Source: Anaerolineales bacterium (GTDB taxonomy: Bacteria > Chloroflexota > Anaerolineae > Anaerolineales > RBG-16-64-43). Taken from it: a stretch of DNA of 43,902 bases. This document shows positions 7,339 to 42,729 of this stretch, piece by piece (the first letter of the stretch is position 1; each line of letters opens with the position of its first letter). The DNA is taken from contig JAFGKK010000067.1 of NCBI GenBank assembly GCA_016928575.1, forward strand, positions 1 through 43,902, written 5' to 3'. A model generated the notes under the pieces. It worked only from the letters and a program-made list of their open reading frames with translations, did no database searches and was not told the DNA's origin. The position numbers were made by a program, and so were the translations under genes.

Positions 7339-8937
7339 ATGCTATCCCTGGGAATCGAATTCAGCACGCAGTCGGTGAAACTGATCGTCCTCGACCTCGA
7401 ACGGAAGCAGGTCGCCTACACCGGCAAGTTCGACTACGATGCGACCTTCCCGCACTATAAGACGTCCGGCGGGATCCTGCCCGCCGCCTCACCGCAGATC
7501 CGCCACACCTCGCCCTACCTGATGATCGAGGCGCTCGATTTCCTGTTCCAGAAGCTCAAGAGCGACGGGGTGGATCTGGCGCAGATTAAAGCGGTCAAGG
7601 CCGACGGGATGCAGCACTGCACGCTGTATTTCGGCGCGGCGTTCGCGCGCGCACTGGGCGCGCTTCAGCCGGAAAAGAACCTGCTCGACCAATTGCAGGG
7701 TACCCTTTCCCGCAAGACGGCCCCGATCTGGGAAGACCGCAGCACCGGCGCGGAAGCCCGACTGCTGACGGATTTGTTGAAGGGTAAGGGCGGCGTGGAG
7801 AACCTGACCGGCAACCGTGCGGAACTGCGCTTCCCGGCTTCGCAGATCATGAAGTGGGCCAAGGAATCGCCGGAGGAATACAAGGCGACCGCCAACATCC
7901 TGCTTCTCAGCGCGTTCCTCACCTCGGTCCTGGCGGGGAAACTCGCGCCGGTGGATACCGGCGACGGCTGGGGGACGAACCTCAACGCGCTCGACATCGA
8001 CCATCCGCAGTGGAACAAAACCGTCCTCGAGGCGATCGACGGCTACCTCAAGCCGCTCGGCTTGGACGGGCTCGCCCCGCGGATCGGCGGCATCGATCAC
8101 TACGACGCGCCGGTTGGAAAGATCAGCTCGTATTTCGCCAAGAAATACGGCGTCCATCCCGACGCCGACGTGCTGGCCGGAACCGGCGACAACCCCGCCA
8201 CCCTGCTCGGTTGCGGCGGGCAGATCGTCATCTCCCTCGGCTCGAGCTACACCGTCAACGGCGTGATGAAGAAGCCGGTCCCTTCGGCGACCGAGGAGTA
8301 CAACGTCTTCGGCTACACCAAGGGCAACGCCATGGCGCTTTCCGTCATCACCAACGGCGGAAAACTGCACGAAGCCTTCCTGCGCAAGTACATCGTCCGC
8401 TCCGACGATAAGCCACTCAGCCGAGCGGATTGGGACGCCTACAGCAAGGCCGCCGGCGGGGCGGCGCTCTCGGCGGACGAAAAGCTGATGCTGCCGTACC
8501 TGTTCGACGAATCGGTTCCGCTGTGCAAGGCCGGGATCGTCCGCCAGGGCTTCGGCGAGGACGACGCGGCCGCCAACATCCGCGCGCTCTACGTCTCGCA
8601 GACCCTTTCGCTGAAGGCGCACTCGGGCCACCTGAGCAACATCGGCAGCTTCGCCATCGTCGCCGGCGGCTCCAAGGATCCGTTCTTCCGCCAGCTGATC
8701 ACCGATTTGTTCGGCGCGGAGAGCTTCATCATCCAGAACTCCGACTACGCCGCGCCCCTCGGCTGTGCGATCAGCGCCGCCAAGCACGCGCTGAACGTCT
8801 CCTACGAGCAGGCGGCGGATATGTTCGTCGTCAAGGATAAAAACAGCTTCCTCAAGCCGATCAAGGAAAACGCCGCGGTCGTCGGCCGGCTCCTGGAACG
8901 CTACAAGATGCTGGAAGAAGAGCACGTAAATAAATAG
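7339..8937 (+). CDS. FGGY carbohydrate kinase, xylulokinase-like
   Basis: 532-residue FGGY-family kinase, probably phosphorylating D-xylulose to D-xylulose 5-phosphate for the pentose phosphate pathway. The N-terminal LGIEFSTQSVK motif matches the xylulokinase type of the family phosphate-binding strand. The C-terminal domain has GTGDNPATLLG with the candidate catalytic Asp near 283, then LGSSYTVNG. GGTGAGGG ten bases before the ATG is the ribosome site. It is the last gene of the operon, followed by a strong terminator. No xylose isomerase is in the window, so that step must be encoded elsewhere. Substrate is inferred from the family and the GH10 neighbour. Confidence 0.85.
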   Translation: MLSLGIEFSTQSVKLIVLDLERKQVAYTGKFDYDATFPHYKTSGGILPAASPQIRHTSPYLMIEALDFLFQKLKSDGVDLAQIKAVKADGMQHCTLYFGAAFARALGALQPEKNLLDQLQGTLSRKTAPIWEDRSTGAEARLLTDLLKGKGGVENLTGNRAELRFPASQIMKWAKESPEEYKATANILLLSAFLTSVLAGKLAPVDTGDGWGTNLNALDIDHPQWNKTVLEAIDGYLKPLGLDGLAPRIGGIDHYDAPVGKISSYFAKKYGVHPDADVLAGTGDNPATLLGCGGQIVISLGSSYTVNGVMKKPVPSATEEYNVFGYTKGNAMALSVITNGGKLHEAFLRKYIVRSDDKPLSRADWDAYSKAAGGAALSADEKLMLPYLFDESVPLCKAGIVRQGFGEDDAAANIRALYVSQTLSLKAHSGHLSNIGSFAIVAGGSKDPFFRQLITDLFGAESFIIQNSDYAAPLGCAISAAKHALNVSYEQAADMFVVKDKNSFLKPIKENAAVVGRLLERYKMLEEEHVNK

Positions 8938-8986
8938 CCCGAATTCGAGAATCTCATCACCGCAAGAGGAAAGCGCGAGAAAACAC

Positions 8987-9034
8987 AAAAGGCACAGAAG
9001 GCGCATGGATTTATGCGCCTTCTGTGCCTTTTTC
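8987..9034 (+). terminator. Long perfect-stem intrinsic terminator
   Basis: A perfect inverted repeat of at least 19 bp (8988-9006 with 9013-9031) with a six-base loop and a T run at the 3' end. An A run on the 5' side lets it work on both strands. It ends the sugar operon 50 bp after the last stop. The stem is unusually long for a simple terminator. Confidence 0.9.
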
Positions 9035-9335
9035 TGGCCGGTCGCTGGGCGAGGCGGGATTCGGCCGCATCGGCCGCAACGATTACTGCGCCGTTGAAGA
9101 AATCAAGGCGCCGTTTGTCTGCCGGGCGGGTTGGGCGGACAAGGCGGCGGCGCTTTTGCGCGGGCTGAATCCCTGCGAAGAACTGCCGTGCAAATCCGCG
9201 CCGGGGGATGTGAACGCGAAGTGCCGGATGGGTAGATTTTTTGCCGTACGCCATGGCAACCTGATGTTGGTCCCGGAAGCCGAGCCTTCCGCCATGCAGC
9301 TGCTATTGGATTTTCTAAAGGAAACGGTGGGGTAG
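9024..9335 (+). pseudogene. Orphan hypothetical ORF, probably a gene remnant
   Basis: Open frame of 103 codons with GC-rich third positions and a natural-looking composition: five cysteines and a hydrophobic C-terminal helix ending LLLDFLKETVG. The only available upstream start, GTG at 9024, lies inside the 3' arm of the preceding terminator hairpin, and no ribosome binding site is visible. It is therefore most likely the surviving 3' part of a decayed or 5'-truncated gene. I do not recognise the family. It could instead be chance coding on the antisense of nothing known. Confidence 0.35.
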
Positions 9336-9348
9336 GTATGGGCGTTGC

Positions 9349-9384
9349 AGACCTGTCAGGCCTGTGCCAAAACCTGACAGGTCT
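9349..9384. repeat. 12-bp perfect inverted repeat (ACCTGTCAGG type)
   Basis: AGACCTGTCAGG at 9349-9360 is the exact reverse complement of 9373-9384, with a 12-base spacer. It sits between the + strand remnant and the stop of the - strand flippase-like gene. It may terminate that transcript, but it lacks a clear T run. It could also be a dispersed palindromic repeat. Confidence 0.75.
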
Positions 9385-9394
9385 CGGACGGCGG

Positions 9395-10408
9395 TCAGTC
9401 CGCCTTCACTTCCGCCTGAATCTCTTTCACCGACAACCCCTCGCGCAGCCAAAAGAATCCCCCCAGCAGCGTGATCGGCAGCCACAGCGCGGCGTGCAGG
9501 ACGACGGTGTAGGCCGAGGCGACGGCATGCTCCACCCCGTAGGCCTCCAGCACGGCGATCCCGGCCGCCTCGAAGGTCCCGATGTATCCGGGCGCGGAGG
9601 GGATGATCGTCACCAAATTGGCGATCCCGTTCATCAGCATCAGCGCGAAGAAGGAAACGCCGAAGGCGAAGGCGTGCATCAGGAACCAATACTTGCCGGT
9701 CTCGAACAGCCAGATCAGGATCGAGGTGAACAGGACCATCAACACGTCGCGCGGCGAGCGCAGGCTGCTTAATCCCTCCAGCAGTCGGTCGACAATCCCC
9801 TGCGCCTTCGGGCGGAAGCGGGCGGGAACGAAATGGGCGATCAGCCGGCCGGACGCCCGGGCCGTGACGGCCGGAAACATCGCCGCCAGGATGAACGCGA
9901 CCAGCGCGCCGAAGAACAGCACCGTTCCGTAGAGGGCCAATTGCTCGATCGTCCCGGCCACCCCGGATCCTCCGGCGCCGAGCCGGGCCAGCTCGGGCAG
10001 GTTGACGAAGACGAACAGCATCATCACCACCGCGTCGAAGGTGCGCTCGATGAACACGATGGCGAAATTGGCGCTGAACGATACGCCCTCCTTCTGCCGG
10101 ATCAGGTACGGGCGGATGAGCAGTTCGCCGGCGCGCCACGGAAAAATGTTGTTGCCCATGTAGGCAATGCACACAATCGGAAACAGCGTTCGGGTGGGAA
10201 CCTTCTTGATCGGCCGCATCAGGTAATGGAGGCGCCAGGCGCGCACCGCTACGCCCATGAAATATACGGCGATGGCGGGGATCAACCAAAAGTATTGTGC
10301 GCCGCGGATGGAATCCCACAGTTCGGCCCAATTTTGTTGGCGGATGAGAAAATAATACAAGCAAACGATGCTGATCAGCAGGCCGACCCAGAATTGCCAG
10401 CGCTTCAT
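9395..10408 (-). CDS. Flippase-like integral membrane protein (LPG_synthase_TM family)
   Basis: 337-residue polytopic membrane protein with about eight hydrophobic segments. It resembles the transmembrane domain of lysylphosphatidylglycerol synthase/YbhN (UPF0104, AglD2/GLTP-type). Recognisable features are the first segment followed by Gln-Asn-W and an amphipathic loop, MGVAVRAWRLHYLM, the MGNNIFPWRAGELLRP-type loop in the second quarter, and IPSAPGYIGTFEAA near the end, which is the family's conserved P-G-x-x-G-x-E motif. Members are thought to translocate or synthesise lipid-linked compounds. It lacks the soluble aminoacyl-transferase domain. The start overlaps a promoter region shared with the divergent rdgB-like gene. 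Confidence 0.82.
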   Translation of the reverse strand: MKRWQFWVGLLISIVCLYYFLIRQQNWAELWDSIRGAQYFWLIPAIAVYFMGVAVRAWRLHYLMRPIKKVPTRTLFPIVCIAYMGNNIFPWRAGELLIRPYLIRQKEGVSFSANFAIVFIERTFDAVVMMLFVFVNLPELARLGAGGSGVAGTIEQLALYGTVLFFGALVAFILAAMFPAVTARASGRLIAHFVPARFRPKAQGIVDRLLEGLSSLRSPRDVLMVLFTSILIWLFETGKYWFLMHAFAFGVSFFALMLMNGIANLVTIIPSAPGYIGTFEAAGIAVLEAYGVEHAVASAYTVVLHAALWLPITLLGGFFWLREGLSVKEIQAEVKAD

Positions 10409-36065: not shown

Positions 36066-36170
36066 GGATTTCTTATTATATAACCGTCGCGCCGGCACAC
36101 GGGGGCGGCCGGTTCCCGGGGGTGGGGATGGGCCGGGGATTAAATGGTAAACTCAGCGCGGAGGGCGGAG

Positions 36171-37208
36171 ATGTCTCTGGGAAACGTCGCCATCATCAGT
36201 TCCGGAGAAACCTCGCCAAGCGGGGGGATTGTCTACCGAAAATTATTCTCGTCCACGCCGCACGGCCTCCGAATCGCCATCCTGGAGACTCCGGCGGGTT
36301 TTGAACTCAACTCCGCCCGGGTAGCCGGGCGGGTGGGGGATTACATTACGCTGCGGGCGGGCGAGTTTTCACCGCGGGTCGACGTCATCCCGGCGCGCAG
36401 GAAAGGGACGGCGTTCAGCCCGGACGCGCCCGAAATCCTGCAGCCGCTGGCGCATGCCGATTGGATTTACCTGGGAGCTGGAAGCCCGACCTACGCCGTG
36501 CGGCAGCTGCGCGGCAGCCTGGCATGGAGGCAATTGCTCGCCTGTTGGCAGCAAGGAGCCGGTTTGGTGCTGGCCAGCGCCGCCGCGCTGGCTGTCGGCG
36601 CCTTCACCCTCCCGGTCTATGAAATCTTTAAAGTCGGGGAGGATCCCGAATGGAAGCCGGGGCTGGACCTGTTCGCCGGATTGGGGTGGAAGCTGGCGGT
36701 TGTCTCGCATTGGAACAACACCGACGGCGGGGAAGAGCTGGACACCAGCCGATGCTTTATCGGGCGCGAACGGTTCGACGTGATGCTGGGTATGCTCCCC
36801 CCGGAGGCGGCGGTTCTCGGATTGGACGAGCACACGGCGGCGATCCTGAATTGGGAGTCGGGCCGGGCCAGCGTGGAAGGAAGGGGGGCCGTCACCGTCC
36901 TGCGCGGCGGAGAGGAACGGGTTCATCCGGCGGGAGAGGAATTCCCGCTTGAGGAATTGGGTGAATACCGCATGCCGTCTAAGCCGTTCGGCGCGGGGGA
37001 AGACGTCTGGAAGGACGTTTCCGACCGCCGATCGGCAGGAGAAACGGTCCCCGTCCCGCCGGCGCAGGTCGCGGAAATGATCGCGCGCCGCGAGCGGGCG
37101 CGCCGCACGGGGGACTACGCCGCAGCCGACGCCCTGCGGACCGACATCGAACGGCTGGGGTGGACCGTGATGGACACGCCGCGGGGATCGCTGCCGCGCC
37201 CGAAGTAA
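36171..37208 (+). CDS. Cyanophycinase-like protein with CysRS-type C-terminal tail
   Basis: 345-residue protein. The first ~215 residues resemble the class-I glutamine-amidotransferase fold of peptidase S51/cyanophycinase: the start VAIISSGETSPSGG, YLGAGSPTYA, and LVLASAAALAVGAFTLP at the nucleophile elbow, where the usual Ser appears in A-S-A-A. The last ~45 residues (RRERARRTGDYAAADALR, then LGWTVMDTPRGSLPR) match the C-terminal tail of cysteinyl-tRNA synthetases. The fusion suggests a link with tRNA or nucleotide handling, but the function is unknown. GGAGGGCGGAG just upstream supports the ATG at 36171. It lies just upstream of tRNA-Gly. Confidence 0.72.
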   Translation: MSLGNVAIISSGETSPSGGIVYRKLFSSTPHGLRIAILETPAGFELNSARVAGRVGDYITLRAGEFSPRVDVIPARRKGTAFSPDAPEILQPLAHADWIYLGAGSPTYAVRQLRGSLAWRQLLACWQQGAGLVLASAAALAVGAFTLPVYEIFKVGEDPEWKPGLDLFAGLGWKLAVVSHWNNTDGGEELDTSRCFIGRERFDVMLGMLPPEAAVLGLDEHTAAILNWESGRASVEGRGAVTVLRGGEERVHPAGEEFPLEELGEYRMPSKPFGAGEDVWKDVSDRRSAGETVPVPPAQVAEMIARRERARRTGDYAAADALRTDIERLGWTVMDTPRGSLPRPK

Positions 37209-37269: not shown

Positions 37270-37341
37270 GCGGGTGTAGCCAAGTGGTAAGGCACTTGCT
37301 TCCCAAGCAAGCATTCGCGGGTCCGAATCCCGTCACCCGCT
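37270..37341 (+). tRNA. tRNA-Gly (CCC anticodon)
   Basis: Acceptor GCGGGTG pairs with CACCCGC; the anticodon stem CTTGC/GCAAG encloses loop TTCCCAA with anticodon CCC; the T arm CGGGT..ACCCG-type contains the TTCGAA-like GGTCCGAATCC. CCA is not encoded. The gene is intact, since the integrated element regenerates the 3' end. Its 3' 60 bp serve as the attachment site of the element. Confidence 0.97.
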
Positions 37342-37345
37342 CAGG
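37286..37345 (+). repeat. attL, 60-bp direct repeat overlapping tRNA-Gly 3' end
   Basis: Identical to 41857-41916 over 60 bp, from GGTAAGGCAC in the D-arm to CGCTCAGG just after the acceptor stem. Identity stops immediately on both sides. Because integration duplicates the tRNA 3' portion, the left copy keeps a functional tRNA. Confidence 0.97.
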
Positions 37346-37398
37346 AAGAGAAAACGCGGTGCCCTTTTCGTGTGTGAAGTCTCCTCATCGGAGGAGTC

Positions 37399-38310
37399 AT
37401 GCGAGAAGGGCACTTGCTTTCCCCGATTCGAACGTCGGTTAATCTCACCCTCAGCACTTCCCCGATACGGCAAGCCTTCGAGGATTTTCTTCTCTCGCGC
37501 GAGGCGATGCGATGCACTCCCGCAACCTTGGAACACTACCGCTATTCGGCCGGAGCGTTTATCACTTGGCTGGAGAGGCAGAACGTCAAGCACCCCGAAG
37601 AAGTTAAATCTTCTCACGTCCGGGAATGGTTGGCGGGAATGCCCAAGGCGAAGGATACAACCCTCCATGCGAAGGCGCGGGGCGTGAGAACGCTTCTCCG
37701 TTTTTGGCTGGCGGAAAAATACCTTACCGATGCCGTGACGTTTCAAATGCCAAGACTCGAAAAGAAACGGCTTCCCTCTCTCACGCCGGAGCAATTTCGT
37801 AAAGCATTAAAAGCCGTACCCACGGCGCGGGATAGGGCAATCCTTTTACTTCTCGTGGATAGCGGCATTCGACGGGCCGAAGCCCTGGCGCTGAATTGGG
37901 GAGACGTGAATTTCCAAACGGGGGCGGTGCTGATACGCAAGGGCAAGGGGAACAAGGCACGGATAACCGCAATCGGGGCGCGCACCCGGAGGGCGTTGAT
38001 AGCACTGCGGCGCGGTCGTAAGATTGCGGATACCGACCCTATATTTACGACCGATGAGGGAATGCGAATAACGGCCTTCGGCCTTCGGAGCGTGTTTGTA
38101 AGGTTGGGCAAGCGGGCAGGCTTTCCCATCAGCCCGCACATGCTCAGGCGGACCTGCGCAGTGCAATCCCTGACGGCTGGTATGGACGTTATCACCCTGC
38201 AGAAAATTCTCGGGCACGCAGATGTGAGCACGACGGCGATTTACTGTAATCTCTTGACCGATGACGTGCTATCGGAACACCGGGCGCACGGTGCGGATAG
38301 TTGGTTATAG
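37399..38310 (+). CDS. int: Tyrosine recombinase (integrase)
   Basis: 303-residue site-specific recombinase expected to integrate and excise the element at tRNA-Gly. The N-terminal core-binding domain (IRQAFEDFLLS, RYSAGAFITWLERQ) precedes the catalytic domain. The catalytic residues are all present: Arg158 in DSGIRRAEAL, Lys in RKGKGNKARI, His247 and Arg250 in HMLRRTCA, His273 in ILGHADVS, and nucleophile Tyr282 in AIYCNLL. It is read outward from the tRNA. GGAGGAG lies two bases before the ATG, an unusually tight spacing, and the region folds into a hairpin. No excisionase was recognised. Confidence 0.95.
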   Translation: MREGHLLSPIRTSVNLTLSTSPIRQAFEDFLLSREAMRCTPATLEHYRYSAGAFITWLERQNVKHPEEVKSSHVREWLAGMPKAKDTTLHAKARGVRTLLRFWLAEKYLTDAVTFQMPRLEKKRLPSLTPEQFRKALKAVPTARDRAILLLLVDSGIRRAEALALNWGDVNFQTGAVLIRKGKGNKARITAIGARTRRALIALRRGRKIADTDPIFTTDEGMRITAFGLRSVFVRLGKRAGFPISPHMLRRTCAVQSLTAGMDVITLQKILGHADVSTTAIYCNLLTDDVLSEHRAHGADSWL

Positions 38311-38412
38311 GAGGAATCGAAAACACCCAATAGGTTTATACTCATCCTTGGAAACTATGGCCGAACAAAGGAGCATATAAACAGGGGAATTAAACTAATT
38401 GAAGGAGGAAAT

Positions 38413-38994
38413 ATGAAACGCTATGTAGCAATAGGAATAGCCGTAGTGGCTGTGGTTATAATCGGAATATTGTCGGGTTTCTTGATTAGTACAAATTCGG
38501 AATTGGGGCAAACGCGTAATGCACTCTCTTTTCAAAAGCAAACAGACACCGCTGCGTCCTCCGCTGCAGATGCTACACAAGAGCGTCAATTTGGTTTATC
38601 TACAGAGGCGGTTTCGACGCTAACGGCCGAGAACCAACAATTGGATTCGTCTCGCAGTACACTTGAGGCGCTTAACATAGAATTGAATGAGGAGAATGCG
38701 AATTTAAAAATTCTCCAGAATGCCGCCTACTGCAATTTGCCATTCCCGAAAGTAGATTTCACTAGTAACGAAACGGTCTCAAAAGCATTGGTTGAATGGG
38801 TTAGTCATGACGATGGGCCCAATCTTATCGCCGATTGGCAACTCATTTGGAGAAATTCGGACGCGGCAATTCATAGAATTTATGGGGATTATTTGTGGGT
38901 TTACATAGTGACTTTCAATGATGGAATTGCCAGCCGCGATTCGATTCTTGATTTACAGCAGCAGTGCTTTCTGTATCTTGAGAGTTGGAAGTAA
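38413..38994 (+). CDS. Hypothetical membrane-anchored protein
   Basis: 193-residue protein of unknown family. An N-terminal hydrophobic helix (IGIAVVAVVIIGILSGFLI, about residues 6-25) is followed by a Gln/Ala/Glu-rich coiled-coil region (~30-100) and a C-terminal globular part with several Trp and two Cys. AAGGAGG precedes the ATG. It is AT-rich compared with the chromosome, typical of recently acquired DNA. Position as the second gene of the element suggests an accessory role, such as immunity or membrane interaction, but this is speculation. Confidence 0.8.
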   Translation: MKRYVAIGIAVVAVVIIGILSGFLISTNSELGQTRNALSFQKQTDTAASSAADATQERQFGLSTEAVSTLTAENQQLDSSRSTLEALNIELNEENANLKILQNAAYCNLPFPKVDFTSNETVSKALVEWVSHDDGPNLIADWQLIWRNSDAAIHRIYGDYLWVYIVTFNDGIASRDSILDLQQQCFLYLESWK

Positions 38995-39040
38995 CTATGC
39001 CATTGATATTACTTTTTCTCAATTAATTACATAGAAAAAG

Positions 39041-39159
39041 AACTGCCCCGCGAGACGCGAATCTCCGGGGCGGCGGCCAAAGCGATGAGAGCGCTCCGAC
39101 GAAAGCAAGCATAGCATAAAAGAGAGCCGTTCGCATATCGCGGGCGGTTCTTTTCTTTT
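39041..39159 (+). ncRNA. Candidate structured RNA, copy 1
   Basis: About 119 nt with three parts: hairpin I, GCCCCG (39045-39050) with CGGGGC (39066-39071) around a 15-nt loop; hairpin II, AGCG/CGCT at 39081-39095; a purine-rich GAAAGCAAGCATAGCA strand; and an 11-bp terminal hairpin (39124-39150) followed by TTTTCTTTT, an intrinsic terminator. A TTGATA / TTACAT pair (39003-39008, 39027-39032) would start transcription at the first hairpin. The same order recurs at 41669-41782. The U tract abuts the GGAGG of the next gene, so it could be a leader or attenuator as well as an independent RNA. Confidence 0.55.
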
Positions 39160-39171
39160 GGAGGGTGAAAG

Positions 39172-39774
39172 ATGTATAAAAAAAATGACCCAATTATTCG
39201 GAAGTGTACACCCCGTGAATTTTGGATGTGGTTTCAGCTTGAGATAATTCAATCCCGAAAAAGATTCTCCTCCCCGGATGAGGGTATCTTCCTCCTAGAC
39301 ATTCCTTTACCATCCGGCGGGCTGGATGACGCAAGGGTGGAGATTACGACTAAGGGTAATTACTCTATGCCTCCAGGACTTACCCCGCCTCCGTCTTATA
39401 CAGGACCAGCGGCACAGGTAGAATATTTTCATAATGAGATATTACCGAAGATAGAAAAGGTAGTTATTAATTTTTCGTTCGTAAAAGTGGATGCTGAGCA
39501 ATTCGAGATTACTTCTCAAGTTAGCGGGCCGGAAACGATAGTCGATTATTACGAGAATGATTTATTGCGGAAGATAAAAGATAAGTGGCCGGAGCAGCCT
39601 GAGCATGCTCAATTGAAAATAAAAGGACAGTCAAGCCGGTTAAAACAAAAAATAGAAGAGCGAAAAAAACGCGTCCATCACTGGCGTGCTCAGGGGATGA
39701 CTATTAGCGAGATAGCGGAAAGGGAAGACATGAGCGAAGTACAGATAAAGCGTGATTTAGGACTGCGAAAATGA
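39172..39774 (+). CDS. HTH-domain protein of the element
   Basis: 200 residues. The N-terminal ~140 residues are of unknown family, starting KNDPIIRKCTPREFWMWF and containing a 'YFHNEILPKIEKVVI' and 'YYENDLLRKIKDKW' pair that look like an internal repeat. The C-terminus is a helix-turn-helix of the Hin/sigma-factor type (RVHHWRAQGMTISEIAERED, then MSEVQIKRDLGL). It probably binds DNA, perhaps as a regulator or accessory replication factor of the element. GGAGGG immediately follows the U tract of the candidate RNA. Frame chosen by the ribosome site. Confidence 0.78.
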   Translation: MYKKNDPIIRKCTPREFWMWFQLEIIQSRKRFSSPDEGIFLLDIPLPSGGLDDARVEITTKGNYSMPPGLTPPPSYTGPAAQVEYFHNEILPKIEKVVINFSFVKVDAEQFEITSQVSGPETIVDYYENDLLRKIKDKWPEQPEHAQLKIKGQSSRLKQKIEERKKRVHHWRAQGMTISEIAEREDMSEVQIKRDLGLRK

Positions 39775-39806
39775 CCCCTTAAATGACCTTTTATTTGACC
39801 CCCTCG

Positions 39807-39847
39807 CCGGGTTACTGTGATTATGCAGTAACCCGGTTTCTTTTTCT
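39807..39847 (+). terminator. Intrinsic terminator before the small RHH-like gene
   Basis: CCGGGTTACTG (39807-39817) pairs perfectly with CAGTAACCCGG (39826-39836), followed by TTTCTTTTTCT. GGAGG of the next gene begins directly after the U tract, so it could act as an attenuator for that gene as well as a terminator for the HTH gene. Confidence 0.88.
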
Positions 39848-39858
39848 GGAGGTCAACC

Positions 39859-40053
39859 ATGCCCAAGGTAGAAATTATCTTAAGTGAATTGGAACATTCC
39901 GCCCTTGAGCGTTTGTCTCGAAGTGAAGGCAGGACGACAAAGAAGCAAGCGGCGGCGGTTATTCGAGAACGATTGAAACGGCGCGGTCTTCTCCCCAAGT
40001 CAAATCCAACCCCCCAACCATCCATGACGCAACCGATGAGCAACCAAGCTTAA
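39859..40053 (+). CDS. Small ribbon-helix-helix-like DNA-binding protein
   Basis: 64-residue protein. A short strand (KVEIILSELEH) is followed by two helices (SALERLSRSEG and KKQAAAVIRERLKRRG), the pattern of CopG/Arc-type ribbon-helix-helix regulators. A Pro/Gln-rich tail follows. GGAGG lies six bases before the ATG, directly after a terminator-like hairpin. It may control copy number or expression of the element. The family match is by pattern only. Confidence 0.65.
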   Translation: MPKVEIILSELEHSALERLSRSEGRTTKKQAAAVIRERLKRRGLLPKSNPTPQPSMTQPMSNQA

Positions 40054-40102
40054 AAAACCACCGTCCGGTGACAGGCCGGGCGGCATAGGAAGGACACTTA
40101 CG

Positions 40103-40480
40103 ATGCTTACTCAGTATAGCACTACTACCAAGGAGCGAAAGCCAATCCCCATCCATGGAAAACCCCTCTTCGTGGGAAGCCGCTGTATCGGAGAGATTGT
40201 CGGAAAAACTCTCCGAAAGCAAATTCAACCCTCAGGATTCCTACGGATACCACCGGCCATAGCGTGGGCGGTGGAGGCAATACGCGCAGCGCAGGCGGCC
40301 GGGGTGGAAAGGCTGGAAGTGATTTGCGGGGGGGATATCTATCGCCTAACGATGGAAGAATTTCTTCGTCATGCGTTCCCCGTCCATCGGGGCGGCTGGG
40401 AACCACAGCTTGCTGCAGCCTTACACGTTTGGCACATCCAACGGCAGGGCGAACCGGCGCAATTGGCGCTGCCGATATAA
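40103..40480 (+). CDS. Hypothetical protein of the element
   Basis: 125 residues, no family recognised. It has a basic N-terminus, a central helix (AVEAIRAAQAAGVERLEVICGGD) and an amphipathic C-terminus. AGGAAGGA precedes the ATG. It is followed four bases later by the winged-helix gene, so the two are probably translated together. Confidence 0.7.
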   Translation: MLTQYSTTTKERKPIPIHGKPLFVGSRCIGEIVGKTLRKQIQPSGFLRIPPAIAWAVEAIRAAQAAGVERLEVICGGDIYRLTMEEFLRHAFPVHRGGWEPQLAAALHVWHIQRQGEPAQLALPI

Positions 40481-40484
40481 GCCG

Positions 40485-41246
40485 ATGCGGAAAGATGATT
40501 ATCTCCCCCACGAAATCGCAAAGGCCGTAACCCAGGACGGGCGTGAAGTCTGGCAACCCCGGTTTATCAAGTTGGATACGGCTTTCCGGCGCGAGACGCT
40601 GGCGAAGCTGAAGGGCTGTAAGCTCTCGGTTTACTTTGACCTGGCGGAGCACATGAACCGCGAGGGCGAATGCTGGCCTTCGATGGAAACCTTGGCTAAG
40701 GAAACCGATTATTCACGGAGGCAGGTAATCCGCGCGATAAAGGAATTGAAAGCGATGGGAATAATCTCCGTGGAACGCGGTGGAGCGGCGCACGGGCGGA
40801 AGCCGGTAAACCGGTACCGCGTCAATTCCTACGTCCGGTATTGTGATGAGGGCTGGCGCGAGGAAGACGCCCCGGAGTTATCCATAGGTGCGGAGCATGT
40901 CGGAAATGTCACTATGGATGGTGACATTTCGAGCATAAAAAGCATGTCGGAAATGTCACTAGAAGAAGACTTTGTATTTAAGAAGACTTTATCTGAAGAA
41001 GACAGCCCGCCGAAAATCACGGAAGGGGCTGCGCTGCGCGGCGCAAAAAAGCAACCCCGCGCCGCCCGCGCCACCTCTCCCCGGTCGGATGACGAAGTAT
41101 CGCTTGCTATCAATGAAACGGAAGAAGAAATCGTCAAACGGCGCCCGCTTACGCCTTCCGAATTGGGGCGTTATAAAGCACGGGGTGTTTGGGGACCGCT
41201 GGCGCGGTTAGAAGCGGAACATGGTTCCCAGAATATCGGAGGTTGA
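40485..41246 (+). CDS. Winged-helix (HTH_36-type) replication-like protein
   Basis: 253-residue protein. The segment from about residue 50 to 110 (VYFDLAEHMNREGECWPSM, ETLAKETDYSRRQVIRAIKEL, KAMGIISVERG) is the winged-helix type found in phage and plasmid replication initiators (HTH_36). The rest is low-complexity, acidic and Ser-rich, with a repeated MSEMSLEED-like stretch, then a basic tail. No helicase or primase motif. The start at 40485 has a poor ribosome site and depends on coupling to the preceding gene. It may bind the element's origin. Confidence 0.78.
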   Translation: MRKDDYLPHEIAKAVTQDGREVWQPRFIKLDTAFRRETLAKLKGCKLSVYFDLAEHMNREGECWPSMETLAKETDYSRRQVIRAIKELKAMGIISVERGGAAHGRKPVNRYRVNSYVRYCDEGWREEDAPELSIGAEHVGNVTMDGDISSIKSMSEMSLEEDFVFKKTLSEEDSPPKITEGAALRGAKKQPRAARATSPRSDDEVSLAINETEEEIVKRRPLTPSELGRYKARGVWGPLARLEAEHGSQNIGG

Positions 41247-41601
41247 AAATGAGCTGGCGTTTCAAATCAAGGCGGCTGGTTTACCCGTTCCGGCGCGGCA
41301 GGTGCAGATTATCCCGGCGCGGCGTTTCCGGTGGGACTTCGCTTGGCCTTCCGCTCACCTGGCGGCGGAGGTGCAAGGCGGCCTCTACTCCGGCGGGGCC
41401 CACGTCCGGGCGTGGGGAGTGACCCGGGACGCGGAGAAGAACAACCTGGCGGTCCTGGCCGGCTGGCGTGTGCTGTACTTCACCAGCGAGGTTGTCAGGT
41501 CCGGACGGGCGCTCTCCATCCTCGAAGACGCGTTGAAAACCCCTCCAGGAAGCAACAGGAAGCCCCAGGACAGGCGGGAAGGCGGGGTGGATACTTCGTG
41601 A
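41221..41601 (+). CDS. Phage-type PD-(D/E)XK nuclease-like protein
   Basis: 126-residue protein resembling small phage-encoded endonuclease-like proteins. FRWDFAWPSAHLAAEVQGG provides the D-x(n)-E-x-Q catalytic core of a PD-(D/E)XK/VSR-like fold, and SGGAHVRAWGVTRDAEKNN followed by LAGWRVLYFTSEVV matches the following conserved helix and strand. It overlaps the winged-helix gene by 26 bp. A DNA-end or Holliday-junction processing role is plausible. The last ~20 residues are Arg/Lys-rich. Confidence 0.8.
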   Translation: MVPRISEVENELAFQIKAAGLPVPARQVQIIPARRFRWDFAWPSAHLAAEVQGGLYSGGAHVRAWGVTRDAEKNNLAVLAGWRVLYFTSEVVRSGRALSILEDALKTPPGSNRKPQDRREGGVDTS

Positions 41602-41668
41602 ACGGCATCACAAGTCAAGCTTGATGAACAATGGGTTAACAATGCGGAAATAGTGATAAGATAAATAC

Positions 41669-41782
41669 GACCCGAACGAGCAAACGTCCGGGCCGTAAGA
41701 GCAAGCCGGGCAAGCGGCCTGCAAGGAAAAGTATAGCACCCGAAGCCGCTTCCGGTCGATACGTCGGAGGCGGTTTTTTCTT
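41669..41782 (+). ncRNA. Candidate structured RNA, copy 2
   Basis: Same order as the RNA at 39041-39159: hairpin I CCCG (41671-41674) with CGGG (41689-41692) around a 14-nt loop sharing CGAG..C..AA..TC with copy 1; hairpin II GCCG/CGGC (41705-41718); single-stranded GGAAAAGTATAGCAC; and an 11-bp terminal hairpin (41743-41776) with a T6 run, sharing AGCCG at its 5' side. An extended -10 TGATAAGAT (41654-41662) predicts a start at 41669. No gene follows, so this copy acts in trans or as a terminator before the attachment site. Confidence 0.55.
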
Positions 41783-41856
41783 AAGGCACTTGCCCCGGCG
41801 TTTTCGAGGAACGCTTCACAATCGAAAAGGGCTGAATTGCAGGAGCGGCGCCTGCA

Positions 41857-41916
41857 GGTAAGGCACTTGCTTCCCAAGCAAGCATTCGCGGGTCCGAATC
41901 CCGTCACCCGCTCAGG
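41857..41916 (+). repeat. attR, 60-bp direct repeat
   Basis: Exact copy of 37286-37345. It lacks the tRNA 5' half (acceptor strand and D arm), so it is not a functional tRNA. Confidence 0.97.
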
Positions 41917-42252: not shown

Positions 42253-42342
42253 CACCCGCTCGGGAATACACGGATTGGATAAACACATCCAGTCTTTTCT
42301 TTTCATGAGTAGTAAACGGAAACACCCGCGCCGCAATCCGCA
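42253..42342 (+). repeat. Diverged copy of tRNA-end/terminator segment
   Basis: Matches 41905-41994 without gaps, 78 of 90 bases by hand count, from CACCCGCTC through the terminator hairpin to CCGCAATCCGCA. The hairpin is preserved (ATTGGAT/ATCCAGT at 42274-42293 plus T run). A further, much weaker copy of the border may begin near 42434 (CCGCTCAGG). Confidence 0.88.
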
Positions 42343-42729
42343 CTCTCCTGCGCCAAGGATGAAGGCATACTGAGGATATTCACGGACAGATTAAGAATTC
42401 GGTCGTAATGTGCGTATTTGGACTTCGGGATCAACCGCTCAGGTTGAATCCGAGTAGAATGACGCGTCCGATCCGATTGTTTTATAAGAAGGGGTATGAA
42501 GATCCCCATCCCGCAAGTCAACCTTTTCAAAGTATGTTTTCAACGGAACGCCGTTGGGAAGAGCAAAAAGGCGTGGTGATTATTTACGGATAAGCCTCTC
42601 CGCAAGAAAAAATTCCTCGGCGACGGCCCCCCCTGAAATTTTTATTTTTACCGCCGCTGGGCGGACGCATGCCGCTGAGATTTTGAATTGCCGCCCTGCC
42701 ATCCTGTGCGCATGGCGTCGTACCGGGGT

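Follow-up and report, generated by a model that had tools for sequence, protein, structure and literature searches.

A small satellite-like integrative element in a tRNA-Gly(CCC) gene of an Anaerolineales bacterium and its p125-bearing relatives

The mobile elements most comparable to the one described here are phage satellites. Phage-inducible chromosomal islands (PICIs), in the passages of PMC6092414 that deal with their organisation, have an attachment site and an integrase gene at their end, no structural or lytic genes and a typical length of about 15 kb; they carry a divergent regulatory pair with a master repressor, and a primase and/or initiator gene followed by the replication origin. 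The phage-inducible chromosomal minimalist islands (PICMIs) of the Vibrionaceae, as described in parts of PMC10803314, lie at fis, need int, alpA and prim, and average 6.7 kb. We analysed an element located in the tRNA-Gly(CCC) gene of an Anaerolineales bacterium, on a contig of 43,902 nucleotides (JAFGKK010000067.1, assembly GCA_016928575.1; this whole stretch is called the window). Its seven genes include those of a tyrosine integrase, a replication initiator (Rep) and a 125-amino-acid protein (p125) that is the hallmark of a group of elements, and we judge it probable, well short of certain, that it is a phage-satellite-like integrative element of minimal gene content which is packaged into the virions of a helper phage.

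The element shares with the PICIs the integrase at its end, the specific attachment site, the absence of structural and lytic genes and an initiator with a putative origin. However, it measures only 4,571 bp with one copy of the attachment (att) core, compared with about 15 kb, its genes all lie on the + strand where PICIs have a divergent repressor pair, and its initiator, whose predicted origin consists of internal iterons, is not accompanied by a primase. The likeness of the terminase small subunit (TerS) holds for some members of the p125 group and not for the window element. PICIs are marked by phage-dependent induction, packaging and interference with their helper (PMC6092414, in the same passages). 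With the PICMIs it has in common a very small gene set without TerS or capsid remodelling genes, made up of a replication gene, an integrase and small regulators, but it lies in tRNA-Gly rather than at fis and no AlpA or primase was matched in it with Pfam or PHROGs. We did not file it as a PICI because it has no divergent repressor, is 4.6 kb long and lacks a primase, nor as a PICMI because it is not at fis and has no AlpA or primase; we refer to the element as satellite-like rather than as a PICI. The p125 protein is unlike any PICI gene known to us.

The earlier note on this DNA, made from the letters alone, had described perfect 60-bp direct repeats in tRNA-Gly(CCC) surrounding an intact tyrosine recombinase and six small genes, among them a winged-helix replication-type protein and a phage-type nuclease, with no structural genes, and our searches agreed on every one of these points (Table 1). 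The two repeats are 100% identical, which is far beyond chance, and correspond to the 3' three quarters of the tRNA gene; elsewhere in the same genome the best matches to the repeat are only 81-87% identical. The integrase gene begins 53 bp past the left repeat and is followed on the same strand by genes for proteins of 193, 200, 64, 125, 253 and 126 amino acids. Scans with Pfam and PHROGs revealed no structural or lytic gene among the seven proteins, the best match being an insignificant Rz-like one (0.028).

Table 1. Positions in the window of the features of the element and of its integration site
Feature	Position	Strand	Basis or remark
tRNA-Gly(CCC), integration target, left whole	37270..37342	+	ARAGORN; Rfam tRNA
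attL core, left 60-bp repeat	37286..37345	+	repeat comparison
possible integrase arm site, left	37361..37379	+	19-nt inverted repeat, 89% complementary to 41814-41832; function inferred
tyrosine integrase, 303 aa	37399..38310	+	Pfam Phage_integrase 2.6e-31; phrog_1 4e-36
193-aa probable membrane protein, N-terminal hydrophobic segment	38413..38994	+	weak matches only (phrog_15667 superinfection exclusion 0.009)
200-aa protein (p200), C-terminal helix-turn-helix, probable regulator	39172..39774	+	weak helix-turn-helix matches
64-aa ribbon-helix-helix-like (RHH) protein, probable regulator	39859..40053	+	element RHH profile 5e-11; phrog_5333 4.5e-5
p125, element-group hallmark, 125 aa, C-terminal clamp-like QLALPI	40103..40480	+	group profiles
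Rep, winged-helix O-like replication initiator, 253 aa	40485..41246	+	HTH_36 1.5e-13; phrog_270 replication initiation 5.2e-16
probable replication origin within rep	40890..41020	.	two exact 21-bp iterons, one inverted copy, AT-rich stretch
126-aa DUF559/VSR-like nuclease	41221..41601	+	phrog_503 2.4e-23; phage relatives
core-like motif AAGGCACTTGC outside att copies	41783..41793	+	decayed G001 end keeps AAGGCGCTTGC
possible integrase arm site, right	41814..41832	+	inverted partner of 37361-37379; similar stretch in G001 remnant
attR core, right 60-bp repeat	41857..41916	+	repeat comparison

The anticodon stem-loop of the tRNA (37295-37311) forms the inverted repeat CTTGC-TTCCCAA-GCAAG, which is the usual shape of a tyrosine-recombinase core, and in a genome of the same family (G004) partial copies of the same tRNA start at the base corresponding to 37299 or 37300 of the window. 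These two features led us to place the probable crossover in the loop of this structure (37300-37306), which CTTGC and GCAAG flank. The inverted 19-mers sit just inside the ends of the element, and AAGGCACTTGC is present at 37289 and 41860 as well as at 41783. Several copies of the tRNA-Gly(CCC) 3' end, 26 to 44 bp long and with the same start base, were seen on G004 contigs C302, C53, C388 and C304; one of them precedes a related integrase, and these copies look like traces of repeated integration.

Comparison of the two flanks of the window, joined together, with a genome of the same genus (G001) showed that the 5' flank continues there through the tRNA into the 3' flank (41917 onward) and that the site is unoccupied. 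In another genome of the same family (G003) the tRNA has no second copy, the 3' flank being too diverged for good alignment. The Rep gene was found in the element's own genome and in none of 60 relatives (1/61 genomes searched). The earlier note had proposed looking for an empty tRNA-Gly site in relatives, and had named as refuting its reading either a 4.6-kb segment fixed as core genes in all related genomes or a site never found empty; the uninterrupted site in G001 and the presence of Rep in a single genome indicate that this DNA is an insertion and not part of the core.

The tRNA-Gly(CCC) site is used again and again, since integrases 54-56% identical to that of the window lie beside tRNA-Gly(CCC) sequence in G004. 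A decayed element end, in which the right-hand set of motif and arm site is still recognisable, lies about 0.7-0.9 kb beyond the tRNA of G001. Downstream of the site, the 3' end of the tRNA and its terminator recur in decayed form in G001 (locus L029, 2988-3189, the right end of an element) and in the window (42253-42349, a 97-nt repeat of the tRNA terminator region, 86%); the site was seemingly used earlier as well. In another family of the class, an 8.1-kb p125 element (L164) with a DNA methyltransferase gene at 8528-9694 likewise occupies tRNA-Gly(CCC). The window element could also be a stranded or domesticated island, recently immobile and kept for cargo such as its membrane protein or nuclease, as its single copy in a draft assembly would allow and as the G001 remnant, which shows that such elements die in place, might suggest; however, its two 60-bp repeats have not diverged and the reading frames of p125, Rep and the integrase are intact, and we consider this explanation quite unlikely.

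In samples of 400 genomes of the order, the integrase had relatives (at ≤ 1e-50) in 29 genomes and p125 in 14, the own genome being included in both counts. With an 11-row profile p125 was found in 32 of the 396 genomes sampled from the class, and with a 24-row profile in 10 of 301 from the phylum; the order, class and phylum samples are overlapping draws from larger groups. Two of the last ten lie outside the class, so that the group spans at least two classes of the phylum; in one of these (L189) the integrase and p125 are located between 46-bp tRNA-Cys repeats. Loci of the order showed exact tRNA repeats 4 to 13 kb apart, with the integrase beside the tRNA and p125 between the repeats. The own genome holds a second, different element (L152) of about 5 kb in tRNA-Leu(CAA), and three members of the group lie on public Chloroflexi bacterium contigs, which agrees with the Chloroflexota-like host that the earlier note had assumed. 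The p125 elements are apparently a widespread, undescribed group of small tRNA-integrated elements; a search of the open-access literature, a scope outside which most subscription papers and all preprints fall, gave no report of satellites or PICIs in Chloroflexota or Chloroflexi.

We delimited 20 elements, from 4.07 to 13.4 kb, in many tRNA genes, leaving aside L189 and every locus whose fetched stretch showed no exact tRNA repeat; L106 was included by its TerS and primase, without p125. L104 and L109, which have exact tRNA repeats and a related integrase, matched none of the p125, TerS and replication profiles and were excluded: they are another kind of cargo element with the same integrase clade. 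Each holds one giant frame (L104 7552-12414, 1,620 amino acids; L109 7278-13631, 2,117 amino acids) and no p125. A second tyrosine recombinase was observed near the opposite end or inside the larger elements L081, L089, L091, L160 and L161.

Among 45 p125 loci, the RHH gene is usually upstream of p125 (within 600 bp in 19) and the replication gene, as recognised by our own profiles, downstream of it (within 600 bp in 25); the integrase was found within 9 kb in 35 loci, many contigs being short, and TerS within 9 kb in 14, including L164, whose TerS lies outside the element. The replication gene varies between a D5-type primase-helicase, a Prim-Pol, an AAA_25 helicase, a zinc primase and O-like initiators. 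The window element conforms to this group, being integrated in a tRNA gene, with a tyrosine integrase and with p125 followed by a replication gene. A solitary TerS profile match occurred in 7 of the 20 delimited elements and was absent from 13; PHROGs confirmed it in both members tested (L081, 1.9e-12, and L108, 4.3e-9), the other TerS assignments being those of our own profile. L149 encodes a fusion of a head maturation protease and a major head protein, and no portal, large terminase or tail protein was found with PHROGs among 30 chosen element proteins. In this the group resembles phage satellites, in which genes for packaging recognition or for the capsid occur while the remainder of a virion is missing, and the presence of virus-packaging genes in some members suggests that the window element probably travels inside the particles of other viruses.

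The smallest members show how far the gene set can be reduced. L108 (4.07 kb, tRNA-Arg) consists of the integrase, p125, a replication initiator and TerS. L156 (4.36 kb, tRNA-Cys, from another family of the class) has an integrase, a helix-turn-helix protein in the position of p200, an RHH frame, p125 and an initiator, with no recognised TerS, and thus repeats the layout of the window, the gene order that the earlier note had proposed seeking in other genomes. The best PHROG of its initiator is 270, as for the Rep of the window, and phmmer gave 2e-10 to 3e-10 between the two. That at least two elements share this stripped layout speaks against the one in the window being a chance remnant.

None of 11 p125 members matched a Pfam or PHROG family, a PDB sequence profile search gave nothing convincing and the copy of the window had no match among annotated phages; its absence from PHROGs and from annotated phages argues that p125 is not simply a phage gene. 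The AlphaFold2 model, computed from four sequences (mean predicted local distance difference test score 77.3, predicted template-modelling score 0.68), has disordered ends and a confident core at residues 21 to 110 (ten-residue means of 76-95). The PDB folds closest to the model by VIA-align (Z ≤ 6.1) were mostly Hjc, D212, RecU and restriction enzymes, the best Foldseek E value against the PDB was 0.043, and no conserved (D/E)xK was seen by eye in the alignment, so we mention a PD-(D/E)XK nuclease fold as a lead only. Five matches in a library of predicted viral structures passed 0.001, none with a listed function.

The tails of p125 were more informative. The strict motif QLxLF occurs in 15 of the 45 tails, where shuffling of the tails would give 0.03, and in 1 of 2,064 other open reading frames (ORFs) of at least 100 amino acids, and the revised sliding-clamp-binding consensus, in the form given in part of PMC13254535, in 23 of 45 tails against 13 of the 2,064 ORFs; the 45 sequences are related, so these counts are not independent, the control ORFs include unreal frames and a few of the 23 matches fall within the last part of the core and not at the extreme C-terminus. 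The glutamine of the motif is invariant in the 24-row alignment and the linker that precedes it varies in length. QLxLF and related patterns were absent from the integrase (70), RHH (22), TerS (15) and replication-profile matches; the host DinB, intended as a control for the clamp motif, had no match in the assembly. For the group as a whole, the sequence pattern is strong, and the p125 tail is a candidate sliding-clamp-binding motif. As in sliding-clamp partners with a QLxLF-type motif, the tails have the motif on a flexible extension that follows the folded part of the protein, but at the sequence level this folded core of p125 is related to no Pfam or PDB entry.

For the Rep gene a start at 40485 (253 amino acids) is more likely than one at 40371, which would make the frame overlap p125. 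With the start at 40485, p125, rep and the nuclease gene stand head to tail, with a 4-bp gap and then a 26-bp overlap. In an origin of the lambda type, iterons followed by an AT-rich stretch lie inside the O gene. The rep gene of the window contains exact 21-bp repeats at 40894 and 40941 that enclose an inverted copy. After them comes an AT-rich stretch with AAGAAGACTTT twice, where 60-base windows between 40930 and 41019 have 35-37% GC and those of the remainder of rep mostly 50-67%. By analogy this region is a probable lambda-type replication origin. Beyond its winged-helix part, the L156 gene likewise has direct and inverted copies of a repeat centred on GCAGAAAATTGC, then a GAAGAA-rich run, while the initiator gene of L108 has no comparably clear iteron array. 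Rep and the lambda-type O initiators are alike in the winged-helix N-terminal half and in the order of iterons and AT-rich stretch; they differ in that the lambda-type origin has four direct iterons rather than two direct and one inverted, and that O has a P-like loader adjoining it whereas none lies beside Rep.

The nuclease has relatives annotated as DUF559 or very-short-patch-repair endonuclease in Meiothermus phages. Three annotated phages were examined. In two of them protein O or a helicase loader is encoded upstream of the nuclease, and in the third the nuclease gene stands two genes from a terminase; with these neighbours Rep and the nuclease look like a phage early cassette. The nuclease search also matched two phage-size contigs, both without p125 or Rep. 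This likeness to phage early genes is what would be expected of a prophage remnant, a temperate phage that had lost its structural genes but kept its integrase and its early region for replication. That origin is very improbable in our view, given the perfect repeats, the same small layout in L156 in a different tRNA gene and family, the lack of a PHROG match for p125 and the gene order proper to the group.

The earlier note had suggested a phage satellite or similar hitchhiker. Its mobility and satellite-like nature are supported by the empty site, by the distribution of Rep and by the p125 group with its TerS and capsid genes, and the reading of the element as a satellite draws mostly on these relatives. 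Several results weigh against it. No packaging gene (TerS, capsid or other) was recognised in the window element itself, nor was a PICI-like divergent repressor; the QLALPI tail of its p125, which we take to resemble the Hda hexapeptide, fits the clamp consensus only when I is accepted as the final residue; and p200 shows no sequence similarity linking it to the proteins that take its position in other elements. Scans of IMG/VR with Rep, the integrase and a p125 sub-alignment gave no relative, and the two families tried for a helper, portal (PF04860) and HK97-type capsid (PF05065), had no match in the own genome, so that no resident helper phage was seen. An integrative plasmid-like hitchhiker, with its own Rep and spread by transformation, vesicles, gene-transfer agents or the conjugation of others, would account for an element with an integrase, Rep and regulators only, for the lack of relatives in the IMG/VR scans and for the 13 delimited elements without a TerS profile match. 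However, TerS in seven relatives and the protease-capsid fusion make sense only with phage packaging, and p125, with one member as query, had no match among 72,556 plasmid records; we consider this alternative unlikely.

If the satellite reading holds, the integrase would recombine the 60-bp att core, an integration that leaves the tRNA whole, and excise the element, after which the lambda O-like Rep would open the origin inside its own gene. The p125 protein, probably held on the sliding clamp of the host through the motif at its C-terminus, would draw the host replisome or polymerase to the element, and the DUF559 nuclease, acquired from a phage early region, would probably serve as a resolvase-like helper of replication or packaging. 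A helper phage would then package the element, in a TerS-directed manner in some members and in a headful-like manner from concatemers where TerS is missing, as is suggested for PICMIs in part of PMC10803314. We propose more tentatively, and with somewhat less than even confidence, a satellite lineage specific to the Chloroflexota and reduced to as little as 4 kb, whose defining feature would be p125 instead of TerS or a primase. In it p125 would fasten a nuclease-like, probably DNA-binding core to the clamp and capture the replisome at the origin, or else keep the replisome from serving the host or helper; around p125, the modules for TerS, primases, the capsid protease fusion and nucleases would be interchangeable.

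Among the remaining features, the 193-amino-acid protein is by its sequence a probable membrane protein, possibly for cargo or exclusion, and the name RHH for the 64-amino-acid protein is our own reading. No defence system was matched above noise. The intergenic regions 39040-39160 and 41655-41785 share a plan of GC-rich hairpins, AGNATAGCA and a strong terminator hairpin, with folding z-scores of -3.1 and -3.8, respectively, and may be small RNAs or sites for packaging or regulation. Apart from the tRNAs, the Rfam matches were to microRNA and other models on inverted repeats, all under the curated scores, and were rejected as chance. The upstream neighbour (36144-37208) ends in a cysteinyl-tRNA-ligase-like domain (CysS_C, 2.4e-7), the rest being unmatched, and a gene with this ending is kept beside the tRNA in G001 and G003.

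If correct, these observations would place phage satellites in a large, mostly uncultured phylum and make the hallmark gene p125 usable as a search probe. They may also narrow the gene set of a satellite to an integrase, regulators, Rep and p125. The conserved sliding-clamp motif in such a hallmark protein would offer a testable mechanism by which a tiny element commands replication.

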